Both the position numbers and the translations under genes were made by a program. Below, one piece after another: positions 19,925 through 28,767 of a stretch of DNA of 64,000 nucleotides; position 1 is the stretch's first letter, and each line of letters opens with the position of its first letter. This DNA is from an uncultured Oscillospiraceae bacterium (GTDB taxonomy: Bacteria; Bacillota; Clostridia; Oscillospirales; Oscillospiraceae): NCBI GenBank assembly GCA_951801655.1, contig CATONV010000003.1:1-64000 (forward strand). The letters run 5' to 3'. Under the pieces are notes generated by a model. That model worked only from the letters and a program-made list of their open reading frames with translations, was not told the origin of the DNA and made no database searches.

Positions 19925-20139
19925 AATATCGACCTCTTCTTCTGATTTGCCGCGGGGCTCGGAACCGCCCCTTCCGGTTTTGTGAGATCATTATACCGCA
20001 TTTCCTCCCCCATTGCCAGCCCTGGAAAAAAATTTCACAAAACTTTAAGGAAAAAACGAGAGTCGTCAAAGAAGAACAGAGGCAACCATCGCAAACGGCA
20101 GGTTTTCTATAGCAATCTGAGAATTGCTGACAGCATTCT

Positions 20140-20215
20140 GTAGGGGCGGGTATCACCCGCCCGCAATCACGACATACACTGCATCATCGTGCGGGCGGAT
20201 GGTATCCGCCCCTAC
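20140..20215. repeat. REPIN-like element (two inverted GTAG-footed REP hairpins)
   Basis: GTAG-GGGCGGGT-ATC-ACCCGCCC ... GGGCGGAT-GGT-ATCCGCCC-CTAC. Confidence 0.85.
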
Positions 20216-20265
20216 AGGTATTGCAATTTTTGAAGATTGCTGCGTGTTTCCCCGAGGCAGGGCCC

Positions 20266-20294
20266 TTGACATTTCCTTCGGTTCATGCTATGCT
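20266..20294 (+). promoter_or_regulatory. Sigma-A promoter of ABC-F leader
   Basis: TTGACA (20266-20271), 17-nt spacer, TATGCT (20289-20294). Confidence 0.85.
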
Positions 20295-20325
20295 GTCTCC
20301 AATCAAACAGATTGGAGGCGGGAAG

Positions 20326-20346
20326 ATGCGCAAAACCACTTGCTGA
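20326..20346 (+). CDS. Leader peptide uORF MRKTTC
   Basis: GGAGG at 20314-20318 with 7-nt spacing to ATG; stop TGA at 20344-20346; within the ABC-F 5' leader. Confidence 0.65.
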   Translation: MRKTTC

Positions 20347-20351
20347 TTCCG

Positions 20352-20512
20352 TGACAGGAATTGATGCGGGCTGTGAGAACAGCCCGGTTCTGTCATGGGT
20401 CCGCAGGAGGAAACGCGCAGTCTTCCCCTTTCGGCTCATATTGGGCATATCATGCCCCTGCCGCCGCAAGAGGGAGTCCCTCCTGCGGTTTTTTCGCGCA
20501 TGACAGGAGGGA
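20352..20512 (+). promoter_or_regulatory. Attenuator region (anti-terminator/terminator/SD-sequestering alternatives)
   Basis: CCGCAGGAGG (20401-20410) is perfectly complementary to CCTCCTGCGG (20479-20488); terminator 20464-20488 plus TTTTTT; TCCCTCCT (20477-20484) is perfectly complementary to AGGAGGGA (20505-20512, the SD). Confidence 0.75.
20464..20494 (+). terminator. Intrinsic terminator within ABC-F leader
   Basis: CCGCAAGAGGG-AGT-CCCTCCTGCGG (one mismatch) followed by TTTTTT. Confidence 0.8.
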
Positions 20513-20517
20513 ACGAT

Positions 20518-21996
20518 ATGTCGCAAATCACCATACAAAATCTGCATTTCACCTACGATGGAGACCACACCCCGGTATTTGACGGGCTGAATCTCCAGCT
20601 GGACACCAATTGGAAGCTGGGCCTGGTGGGCCGAAACGGTCGGGGTAAAACCACTCTGCTCCGACTGCTTGCCGGAGAACTGGAGGGCCGCGGGACGGTC
20701 TTCCTCCGCCAGCCCTGTCTGCGCTGGCCCAGGCCGGTGGCCGACACAGACCGGCGGGCGCTGGACATCCTGCTGGAGGGTGCGCCGCCGGAGGAGGCGT
20801 GGCGTCTGAGCTGGGAGCTGTCCAAGCTGAGGCTGGGAGAGGAGGTGCTGGACCGGCCCTTCGCCACTCTCAGCGGCGGGGAACAGACCCGCGCTTTGCT
20901 GGCCACCCTCTTTTTGGACGAGGGGGCCTACCCCATGCTCGACGAACCCACCAATCATCTGGACGGCCCCGGCCGGGATCTGGTGTCCAGCTATCTCCGG
21001 GGATTGGACCGGGGCTTTCTGCTGGTGTCCCATGACCGGGCCTTTCTGGACGGCTGCGTGGACCACATCCTGGCCCTGAACCCCACCGGCCCGGAGCTGG
21101 TACGGGGCACCTTCTCCAGCTGGTTTCGGGATAAGGAGGACCGGGACCGCGGGGAGGCCGCCCGGAACGAGAAGCTGAAGGGGGAGATACGCCGGCTGGA
21201 GCAGGCGGCAAAGCGGGTCGACCGCTGGTCGGACAGAGTAGAGAGGAGCAAATACCACAGTGAGAACTCCGGATTAAAGGTAGATCGGGGATTTATCGGC
21301 CACAAATCGGCCAAAATGATGCAGCGGGCAAAAAATATCGAGGACCGGCAGCACAGGGCTATCCAGGAGAAAACGGGGCTTCTCAAAGACATCGAGAGGG
21401 CAGACAGCCTGAAACTGACCCCCCTGATCTACCACAGTGGCCGCCTGCTGGAGGGCCGTGACCTGGCCGTCTCCTATCCCGGCGTCCACGGAAGACCGGT
21501 TAGCCTCACCCTGCGCCAGGGGGACCGCCTCTGCCTCAGCGGCGGCAACGGCTCGGGCAAGACCAGCCTGCTGCGGCTCATTCTGGGGGAGGAAGTCCCC
21601 CACACAGGGACGCTGTTCCGGGCCTCCGGTCTTCAGATTTCCTTCGTCTCCCAAAAGGCAGACCACCTGCGGGGAGGCCTGGTCGCCTGGGCGGAAACTC
21701 AGGGCGTCGATCTGACTCAATTCCTTACCGTTCTGCGCAAGCTGGATTTCTCTCGAGAGCTGTTCCAGCGGGACATGTCTGAGTACAGCGCGGGGCAGCA
21801 GAAGAAGGTCCTCCTGGCAGCCAGTCTGTGCCACAGCGCACACCTGTATGTGTGGGACGAACCGCTGAACTATATCGACCTGTTCTCCCGGATGCAGCTG
21901 GAGGAGCTGCTCCTCCAGTACCGGCCCACCCTCCTCTTTGTGGAACACGACCAGGTCTTTCGGGAGAAAATTGCCACTCAGGTGGTGCAGATATAA
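20518..21996 (+). CDS. Lsa-family ABC-F ribosomal protection protein
   Basis: Tandem ABC domains; NWKLGLVGRNGRGKTTLLRLL, LSGGEQTRALLATLFLDE, YVWDEPLNYIDLFSRMQLEELLLQYRPTLLFVEHDQVF resemble Lsa/Sal/Vga type. Confidence 0.9.
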   Translation: MSQITIQNLHFTYDGDHTPVFDGLNLQLDTNWKLGLVGRNGRGKTTLLRLLAGELEGRGTVFLRQPCLRWPRPVADTDRRALDILLEGAPPEEAWRLSWELSKLRLGEEVLDRPFATLSGGEQTRALLATLFLDEGAYPMLDEPTNHLDGPGRDLVSSYLRGLDRGFLLVSHDRAFLDGCVDHILALNPTGPELVRGTFSSWFRDKEDRDRGEAARNEKLKGEIRRLEQAAKRVDRWSDRVERSKYHSENSGLKVDRGFIGHKSAKMMQRAKNIEDRQHRAIQEKTGLLKDIERADSLKLTPLIYHSGRLLEGRDLAVSYPGVHGRPVSLTLRQGDRLCLSGGNGSGKTSLLRLILGEEVPHTGTLFRASGLQISFVSQKADHLRGGLVAWAETQGVDLTQFLTVLRKLDFSRELFQRDMSEYSAGQQKKVLLAASLCHSAHLYVWDEPLNYIDLFSRMQLEELLLQYRPTLLFVEHDQVFREKIATQVVQI

Positions 21997-22000
21997 GGCA

Positions 22001-22027
22001 AGAGAGAGGGCCAGCGGCCCTCTCTCT
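22001..22027. terminator. Bidirectional hairpin between convergent genes
   Basis: AGAGAGAGGGCC-AGC-GGCCCTCTCTCT. Confidence 0.7.
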
Positions 22028-22030
22028 AAT

Positions 22031-23152
22031 TCAGGTAACGGGCATACCGTTGACCTCCACTCCCTCGCCAGCGGGAATCAGGAGGTACTTTTTTCCGTCG
22101 ATGATCCGGGTTTCCACCAGGTAGCTCTGCTCCGGGGACAGAGAAACGGTGACGTCTCCCGCCTTGACCTCAAATCGCCTGCAGTCGATGAGATTGGCGG
22201 GGCTGAGGGCCGCGCCCTCGCCAAACTGCTGGCCGCAGCTCTCGCAGAAGGCGGCCACCTTCTCCTCCTCCACCCCACAGCTCTGAAGGATATTTCCCAC
22301 CTCCCGGGCGGTCACGGCCAGGGGCTCCGGATCGCCTTTGTGCTGCTCGATGCGGTCTGTCAGCTGCTCGTGGACAGCCTGGACCACCTCCAGGCTGCAT
22401 GCCTCCTCCAAAGCCTGGGTAAGGGCGGCTTGAAAGGCCTCCCGTTGCTCCCCCGCCGACATGGGCGGCTCGGTGTGGAAAACAGCGTCCAAAAACTCCT
22501 GATGCAGCTCGTCGGCCTTCCGGGAGTAGGAAAGGGCGTTGTAAATGTTGGCCGCCCGGTCGTCAAATGCGGGAAACAGAAAGCCCAGCTCAGGCGGAGC
22601 CACCAGCTGGCGGGGCAGCGTATTGTGAAACTCATTCTCGCCGGGGAAATAGCTCAGCTCCGCTTTGCCGTCCTTCACCGGGCAGACACAGCACACGACA
22701 TAGGAGAACACCTGTTCGGAGGCATCCGCCTGCACCTCGCCGTCCCCGCCCCGGTGAGGTACGTCATAGGCGTCGTGGGCCAGCAGGATCAGATAGTTGC
22801 TGCCCTCCATGTCCAGAGAGTCGATCACCTTTTGATAAAAGTTCTCGCGGATTTCCCCGTCCTTCAGTTCGGAGTCCCGCAGGGCCATGAGCAGCCGGTG
22901 CTCATCGCTGTCCATCACCTGCCGGGTGGAAAACACAATGTCGATCAGGTTCTTCCCCAGCGTTCCGGACAGAGTTTTTTTCAACAATCCCAGATACTTT
23001 TCCGCCTCCTCCTGGGGCATTCTTCCCAAAGACTCATCCAGGTAGGAGACAATCTCTTTATTGCAGTTGACATAACATCCATAGATGCGGCTGATGGCGC
23101 TCTTGTCCGCCCGAAACCGGCGGCGCAGCTCACTGATTTCCTTTTGATTCAT
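22031..23152 (-). CDS. DUF4317 domain-containing protein
   Basis: MNQKEISELRRRFRADKSAISRIYGCYVN...YLDESLGRMPQEEAEKYL, characteristic of the family. Confidence 0.9.
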   Translation of the reverse strand: MNQKEISELRRRFRADKSAISRIYGCYVNCNKEIVSYLDESLGRMPQEEAEKYLGLLKKTLSGTLGKNLIDIVFSTRQVMDSDEHRLLMALRDSELKDGEIRENFYQKVIDSLDMEGSNYLILLAHDAYDVPHRGGDGEVQADASEQVFSYVVCCVCPVKDGKAELSYFPGENEFHNTLPRQLVAPPELGFLFPAFDDRAANIYNALSYSRKADELHQEFLDAVFHTEPPMSAGEQREAFQAALTQALEEACSLEVVQAVHEQLTDRIEQHKGDPEPLAVTAREVGNILQSCGVEEEKVAAFCESCGQQFGEGAALSPANLIDCRRFEVKAGDVTVSLSPEQSYLVETRIIDGKKYLLIPAGEGVEVNGMPVT

Positions 23153-23553: not shown

Positions 23554-23736
23554 ATGGAAATTGAAATCCCCACGGTCATAGAAGAACTCTATCTGGGCCT
23601 CTACCCAGGTCCCGACCCGAAATTCTGGCCGGACTATCTGAAAGACGACCCCGTCCGAGCCCACGGACTGCTCAGCTTTTACCGCGGACTTCGTCTAGGC
23701 TTCCAGATGGCCAGCCTCTGCCTGGGCGGGATGTAG
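23554..23736 (+). CDS. Small uncharacterised protein (60 aa)
   Basis: MEIEIPTVIEELYLGLYPGPDPKFWPDYLKDDPVRAHGLLSFYRGLRLGFQMASLCLGGM; RBS AGGAGG; stop codon lies in the following REP. Confidence 0.6.
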   Translation: MEIEIPTVIEELYLGLYPGPDPKFWPDYLKDDPVRAHGLLSFYRGLRLGFQMASLCLGGM

Positions 23737-23800
23737 GGGCGGCCTGTGGCCGCCCGTTTCAGGATGCATTAACTGCCGGGCGGCCACAGGCTGCCCCTAC
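23733..23800. repeat. REPIN-like element
   Basis: GTAG-GGGCGGCC-TGT-GGCCGCCC ... GGGCGGCC-ACA-GGCTGCCC-CTAC. Confidence 0.85.
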
Positions 23801-28645: not shown

Positions 28646-28668
28646 GGGCGGCCGCAGGCCGCCCCTAC
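28646..28668 (-). repeat. Solo GTAG-footed REP
   Basis: Reverse strand: GTAG-GGGCGGCC-TGC-GGCCGCCC. Confidence 0.75.
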
Positions 28669-28767
28669 AATATATCATATCCCGGGCAAAATTTCGACTC
28701 TTTCGAACAAAATACCCTTGTCTTTTTTCTCCGTCCCCGATATGATGGAGGGGCGAGGTGACATGTT

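Follow-up and report, generated by a model that had tools for sequence, protein, structure and literature searches.

A predicted ribosome-mediated transcription attenuator upstream of an Lsa-like ABC-F gene, with relatives across Clostridia

Clindamycin-type drugs, pleuromutilins and streptogramin A are the antibiotics against which Lsa-like ABC-F proteins protect the ribosome. Attenuation linked to a short upstream open reading frame (uORF) is a known mode of control for genes of this kind, and lmo0919 belongs to the same mechanism class as vmlR and cplR. Experiments have demonstrated such uORF logic in the leaders of vmlR (PMC9226507), cplR (PMC10201436) and are5sc and tiaA (PMC12421871). 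An earlier note on this DNA had pointed to vmlR and lmo0919 as precedents among ARE ABC-F genes. For a gene lying in the 64,000-nucleotide stretch analysed here (the window), that note had proposed a three-way attenuator in which the 3' arm of a terminator (t3) pairs with its own 5' arm (t5), with an upstream arm (b) or with the Shine-Dalgarno sequence (SD) of the gene, one segment thereby gating both transcription and translation. The question raised by this locus is whether the leader is a switch and, if so, at which of the two levels it operates.

Organization of the leader

The protein encoded by the gene has ABCF_Lsa_all as its best NCBIfam match of all families (616.6 bits); as this score lies below the curated cut-off of 750, we call it Lsa-like rather than a named Lsa. 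It scores above the curated cut-off of ribo_prot_ABC_F (418.7 bits, cut-off 380), and among solved structures it is most similar to Lsa(A) (7nhk, E 4e-119). An in-frame start further upstream, at 20395, was rejected, since the frame is not conserved in relatives. The features of the locus, all on the + strand, are as follows (AAT, anti-antiterminator; AT, antiterminator).

20266-20294, +: sigma-70-type promoter (TTGACA at 20266-20271, 17 nt, TATGCT at 20289-20294)
20314-20325, +: SD region of the uORF, identified by sequence (SD, GGAGGCGGG)
20320-20331, +: AAT arm A, from the SD of the uORF through its start codon
20326-20346, +: uORF ATG CGC AAA ACC ACT TGC TGA, six codons encoding MRKTTC*, the putative sensor
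20335-20346, +: AAT arm B, ACCACUUGCUGA, codons 4-7 of the uORF, resembling the terminator 3' arm t3
20348-20399, +: AAT apical hairpin C:c, UCCGUGACAG/CUGUCAUGGG (20348-20357 with 20390-20399)
20367-20386, +: inner stem within C:c, CGGGCTGT-GAGA-ACAGCCCG, enclosed by TGACAG/CTGTCA
20401-20410, +: arm b, CCGCAGGAGG, partner of arm B of the uORF (AAT state) or of t3 (AT state)
20415-20427, +: arm a, GGGAAGAUGCGC, partner of the uORF SD and start
20443-20457, +: small hairpin GGGCAU/AUGCCC between arm a and the terminator, apex of the predicted antiterminator
20464-20494, +: intrinsic terminator (t5 CCGCAAGAGGGA, 20464-20475; t3 TCCCTCCTGCGG, 20477-20488; T6, 20489-20494)
20499-20506, +: CAUGACAG beside the ABC-F SD, complementary to arm c at 20390-20397 (8 bp)
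20505-20512, +: SD of the ABC-F gene, AGGAGGGA, identified by sequence (ATG at 20518)
20518-21996, +: gene for an Lsa-like ABC-F ribosomal protection protein of 492 amino acids (NCBIfam, structure match)

Checked against the sequence, every element that the earlier note had named lies where it was placed, and the promoter, the nested hairpin, the arm CCGCAGGAGG, the terminator and the SD of the gene are all borne out as sequence. So are its pairings: t3 matches t5 at 11 of 12 positions, with one A.C mismatch, and arm b at 10 of 10, a perfect upstream 10-mer match for which about 0.0004 would be expected (3 windows x ~125 positions / 4^10). The match of t3 to the SD of the gene is likewise complete (8/8) as sequence, and is less surprising because any arm containing CCUCC is complementary to an SD. 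What had been missed was the identity of the uORF, its pairing with downstream arms, and the pairing of 20390-20397 with 20499-20506.

Transcription probably starts near 20301, judged from the sequence, and the predicted fold of the 275-nt region is much more stable than those of its shuffled versions (z -8.7, 0/200). When the RNA is folded from this probable start, arm A (20320-20331) pairs with arm a (20415-20427), and arm B (20336-20343, within codons 4-6) pairs with arm b (20403-20410), so that the uORF, arms A/B and a/b and the C:c hairpin form one long AAT hairpin. It is this AAT half that ties the uORF to the switch.

The surroundings of the leader also hold some features of their own. 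At the 5' end, a small hairpin (UCCAAUC/GAUUGGA, 20298-20316) overlaps the SD of the uORF, with its UCC/GGA pairing apparently kept through changes in close relatives, and might tune initiation on the uORF. Just upstream of the promoter, at 20139-20216, lies a palindromic repeat, TGTAGGGGCGGG...CCGCCCCTACA; the 11-mer CCGCCCCTACA occurs four times in the window (0.07 expected), also at 23732-23742 and 28659-28669, and GNCCGCCCCTACA is found in 17 copies in the genome against 4 for the reversed control. This dispersed REP- or MITE-like element is also present near the orthologues in L026 and L034. Directly after the ABC-F stop codon, a hairpin at 21998-22030 (GAGAGAGGGCC..GGCCCTCTCTC) is probably the 3' terminator of the gene, shared with a convergent gene at 22031-23152 on the - strand.

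Conservation and covariation of the competing helices

The gene is carried by 40 of 64 genomes of the same genus. The comparison within the genus covered the 39 orthologues with an intact upstream region, 36 leaders of which were aligned; the leader is conserved among them, but this conservation does not extend to the DNA further upstream, which is unrelated. Covariation in this alignment was judged against a tree-aware null, in which the changes of each column are re-placed on the tree. By this measure the C:c hairpin (97% of cells paired, changes on both sides in 6 of 10 pairs, p 0.0005), its inner stem (p 0.003) and the terminator (93% of cells paired, changes on both sides in 6 of 12 pairs, p 0.0025) are clearly maintained; the small hairpin at 20443-20457 has a p of 0.02, with 80.6% of cells paired. 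The pairings B:b (99.5% of cells paired, few changes, p 0.23), b:t3 (93.6% of cells paired, p 0.10) and A:a (p 0.10) fall short of significance within the genus, since the segments involved show little variation or are out of register in the alignment. An all-against-all screen in the style of R-scape was underpowered at 35 leaders, the top pair reaching E 1.6.

The comparison was also extended beyond the genus. The family-level search found the gene in 107 of 401 genomes and, together with the genome collection, yielded 138 leaders. An automatic rule (a short ORF with an SD, 140-345 nt upstream of the gene) identified a uORF in 115 of them, about 17% having none by these criteria; a terminator was found in 106 of the 115, with a median of -22 kcal/mol. 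Of these 106, 82 have a promoter-like site no more than 95 nt ahead of the uORF, the number expected from shuffles being 8.9. We then took one leader per genus from 37 genera and exchanged segments between genera in 200 trials. Own partners paired more strongly than swapped ones for B:b (-13.0 versus -10.5 kcal/mol), A:a (-17.3 versus -14.6 kcal/mol) and b:t3 (-15.8 versus -14.1 kcal/mol), the own value being reached in 0 of 200 swaps in each case. The covariation in orthologous leaders that the earlier note had proposed to look for is thus present for the terminator within the genus and for b:t3 across the 37 genera, and absent for the third pairing, t3 with the SD.

Individual leaders illustrate the same compensation: L031 has the A:a variant GGGACG/CGUCCC and, by eye, the uORF of L131 ends UCC CGC (Cys to Arg) opposite b = GCGGGAG, while L147 carries UUUUCUUGC opposite GCAAGAAAG. 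The best sites for B and for t3 coincide in 86 of the 106 leaders, whereas shuffled B gives 47 and at most 53. B and t3 therefore compete for arm b, which links the uORF to termination. We also considered whether arm a and t5 make up the other half of the antiterminator, a pairing that appears in the stalled fold of the window's leader and is 91% paired in one genus helix; it was rejected, as the t5 partner is no better family-wide than that of shuffled t5.

Predicted response to a ribosome at the start of the uORF

In equilibrium folding of the window's leader, a ribosome-sized block on the uORF start lowers the probability of the terminator from 0.90 to 0.00, and t3 then pairs upstream with a probability of 0.86; in the minimum-free-energy fold of this stalled state, the small hairpin at 20443-20457 caps the antiterminator. 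The effect depends closely on position: in a scan with a 31-nt block, effective placements start only 25 to 10 nt before the AUG. From a start 5 nt before the AUG onwards, the block leaves the terminator probability at 0.89-0.90, and this holds up to the placements that overlap the terminator. Such a pattern, although predicted, fits drugs that halt ribosomes at the start codon, as toeprinting revealed for lincosamides, streptogramin A and pleuromutilins on are5sc and tiaA (PMC12421871).

Across the 106 leaders, the block on the uORF start lowers the probability of the terminator by more than 0.2 in 41, and an equal block elsewhere does so in none. For the other 65, equilibrium folding predicts no loss of this size, a likely reason being the high stability and local nature of the t5:t3 hairpin; the competition in time between b:t3 and the local t5:t3 is a kinetic question outside the scope of an equilibrium calculation.

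Possible links to translation

Two readings would add a translational layer to the leader. The first, which we consider possible but unlikely, is that arm c (20390-20397) pairs with CAUGACAG (20499-20506) and so locks the antiterminator or tunes access to the SD. This perfect 8-bp helix occurs in the predicted stalled fold of the full-length, antiterminated RNA, extending the antiterminator as far as the first bases of the SD, and it has compensatory variants in L018, L028/L030/L031 and L032-34. Its tree-aware p of 0.003 in the genus leans partly on a local re-alignment by hand of the three rows L032-L034, without which there are 5 compensatory cells against 0.9 in shuffles. The helix is absent or weak in L010, L116 and L144, and GACAGGAGG might be retained for other reasons. 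Moreover, because it partly covers the SD, it would hinder rather than help translation.

The second, the t3:SD gate of the earlier note, is improbable. Beyond the 8-bp complement in the window, what speaks for it is that t3:SD beats shuffled t3 within the genus (-12.0 versus -9.4) and that vmlR and cplR are known to be controlled at the translational level as well (PMC9226507, PMC10201436). However, an arm with CCUCC matches an SD easily, and the pairing did not covary in the genus (80.6% of cells paired against a shuffled mean of 81.2%, tree-aware p 0.29) or rise above shuffled in the 74 leaders from outside it (-6.97 versus -7.26). The predicted accessibility of the SD is also unchanged, with a mean of 0.315 in the free and 0.300 in the stalled state, and t3:SD was therefore set aside as a translational gate. 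In dual attenuators, the SD of the gene is sequestered when the system is repressed and released when it is induced, a behaviour that was not found here; given neither covariation of t3:SD nor a change in predicted accessibility, the leader has a weaker claim to that class. The transcriptional half of the proposed three-way attenuator, in contrast, is well supported by the conserved elements, the compensatory changes, the association with Lsa-like genes and the predicted switch at an occupied uORF start.

The first codons of the uORF as a putative sensor

A short uORF preceded by an SD and starting ATGCGC is present in 38 of the 39 orthologues of the genus and reads MR[KN]xxC* in nearly all; the remaining one encodes MINFSCK*. 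The peptides of the genus comprise MRKTTC, MRNTTC, MRKTAC, MRKFPC, MRKFSC, MRNTSC, MRNSHR, MRNSLR, MRNTAC, MRNAAC, MRNTLG, MRINSCK, MRTASCK and MINFSCK. Across families, typical uORFs end in Ser/Ala-Cys(-Lys/Arg), as in MRNISC, MSNISC, MINFSCK, MHRFSCR and MISASC. Other uORFs (MRK*, MRN*) stop after three codons, with a CUUCUUGC-like arm B still following, its distance from the AUG almost unchanged, and in L243 and L245 the uORF has only two codons (MK*) with arm B intact past the stop; these two are the natural minimal version of the putative sensor. Since arm B persists beyond the stop, it is kept as RNA, and sensing would have to fall on the first codons. We infer from these sequences that the first one to three codons would act as the sensor, the remainder being conserved as RNA and not as peptide. 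The macrolide arrest motif Arg-x-Lys was also considered and rejected, residues 2 and 3 of the uORF being too variable.

The same variation bears on whether the leader might respond to amino-acid starvation, through pausing at the Arg, Lys, Thr or Cys codons that the uORF does contain. We regard this as highly improbable: the residues vary freely (MIN, MSN, MHR, MFS, MRK*, MK*) with arm B nevertheless retained beyond a stop codon, the gene encodes a ribosome-protection factor and not a biosynthetic enzyme, and a block on the later codons leaves the fold unswitched.

Distribution of the leader family

A covariance model (R1) was built on the AAT alone, with no coding sequence beyond the uORF. 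It finds one site per genus genome, the antisense mirror counting as the same site. In 295 order-level genomes it gave 17 matches, not counting the window. Fifteen of these immediately precede an Lsa-like gene and have a short uORF; the remaining two are the poorest-scoring matches at this level (E 0.003 and 0.008). All six matches in 391 class-level genomes lie upstream of Lsa-like genes, which brings the total for the two levels to 21 of 23, in about a dozen families. An absence of regulation, with a constitutive gene behind a chance G+C-rich hairpin and the terminator of a small upstream RNA, is likewise highly improbable: many hairpins do arise from G+C-rich sequence, but the conservation, the swap tests, the covariation in 37 genera and the fact that in a dozen further families the leader goes specifically with Lsa-like genes all stand against it.

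No Rfam family matched at the gathering score (one chance-level match had E 4), and no description of this leader family was found in the open-licence literature. The kind of mechanism is known; the leader, as a class-wide family, does not seem to have been described before. What sets it apart as new is the consensus of its uORFs, its distribution over the Lsa-like genes of Clostridia, and a terminator that does not sequester the SD.

A leader that looks the same also precedes a plasmid-borne Lsa-family gene, 53% identical, in Paenibacillus urinalis (NZ_CP118102.1; L248:300-612), with an MDRM* uORF, a UUCUUGC arm, GCAAGAAAAUU and a terminator GCGAGAA/UUUUCUUGC. Its sequence hints at a transfer of gene and leader into Bacilli.

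Discussion

The leader is very probably a ribosome-mediated transcription attenuator. It has an ARE-type ABC-F gene downstream, a conserved, SD-led uORF near the transcript start (as judged by sequence), an intrinsic terminator between the two, and a predicted pair of structures, namely a uORF-containing AAT and an antiterminator that excludes both AAT and terminator. Our account starts from what was computed (the elements and their conservation, the covariation seen both inside the genus and from genus to genus, and the switch predicted by folding), and we infer that the uORF is translated, that drugs of a certain spectrum stall ribosomes on it, and that the cell accordingly terminates or reads through. 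Without drug, the uORF would be read without arrest or be folded away, and its SD and start (A) and codons 4-7 (B) would pair with a and b in the long AAT hairpin capped by C:c; with b hidden, the t5:t3 hairpin would form and RNA polymerase would stop at T6. A drug of the pleuromutilin, lincosamide or streptogramin A type would arrest a ribosome early in the uORF, at its first codons, where it would cover A and B and leave b free to take t3 (10 bp), so that no terminator would form and the Lsa-like gene would be transcribed.

The closest precedents share parts of this design. Like the present gene, vmlR of Bacillus subtilis encodes an ARE ABC-F protein and is preceded by a very short uORF in a 5' AAT hairpin, a hairpin between AAT and terminator that forms the apex of the antiterminator, and a terminator just upstream of the gene; it differs in its uORF (MIN), in belonging to ARE2 (VmlR) and not to the Lsa-like proteins, and in a separate SD-sequestering hairpin, SL-4, with mapped NusG pauses (PMC9226507). 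In cplR of Clostridioides difficile, the uORF consensus MR[I/M] is close to the MR[KNHI] found here, and the uORF likewise sits in a 5' hairpin ahead of an intrinsic terminator that attenuates transcription, as predicted for our leader; there, however, the terminator hairpin sequesters the SD of the gene and translational attenuation has been demonstrated (PMC10201436), whereas the SD here lies 17 nt beyond the terminator and a translational switch is unsupported. The lsa(A) gene of Enterococcus belongs to the same protein family (Lsa) but has the uORF consensus MAGN (PMC10201436), as opposed to MRKTTC, and the present leader is not of the lsa(A) type. The plasmid lsa(B) leader of Staphylococcus aureus (L247:300-612) has neither the uORF nor the architecture described here; it contains a longer SD-preceded ORF (MVLELDVTHELL...), whose end lies close to the start of the gene, and lacks a U-run terminator of the present kind. 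The leaders of are5sc and tiaA in Streptomyces coelicolor also combine a short uORF with a terminator and antiterminator, although these are ARE5 genes of Actinomycetota, with the uORFs MLV and MVGDDDISG (PMC12421871).

A broader reading, which is doubtful, would join these strands into one class-wide family of Clostridia, with a 2-7-codon uORF read at its first codons only and the rest a decoy that copies t3. The helix between 20390-20397 and 20499-20506 would then tie the antiterminator to the ribosome-binding site of the gene, as a second, translational control undescribed for other ABC-F leaders.

If the attenuator is inducible, gut commensals would carry a silent, drug-triggered resistance that is invisible to standard gene annotation, and one inducible leader architecture would span the Oscillospirales and further families of Clostridia. 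The comparative set also makes a question left by cplR and vmlR testable, namely which parts of a uORF consensus reflect peptide sensing and which reflect RNA structure. For this family the sequence data say that codons 1-3 would do the sensing and that the rest would serve as RNA.
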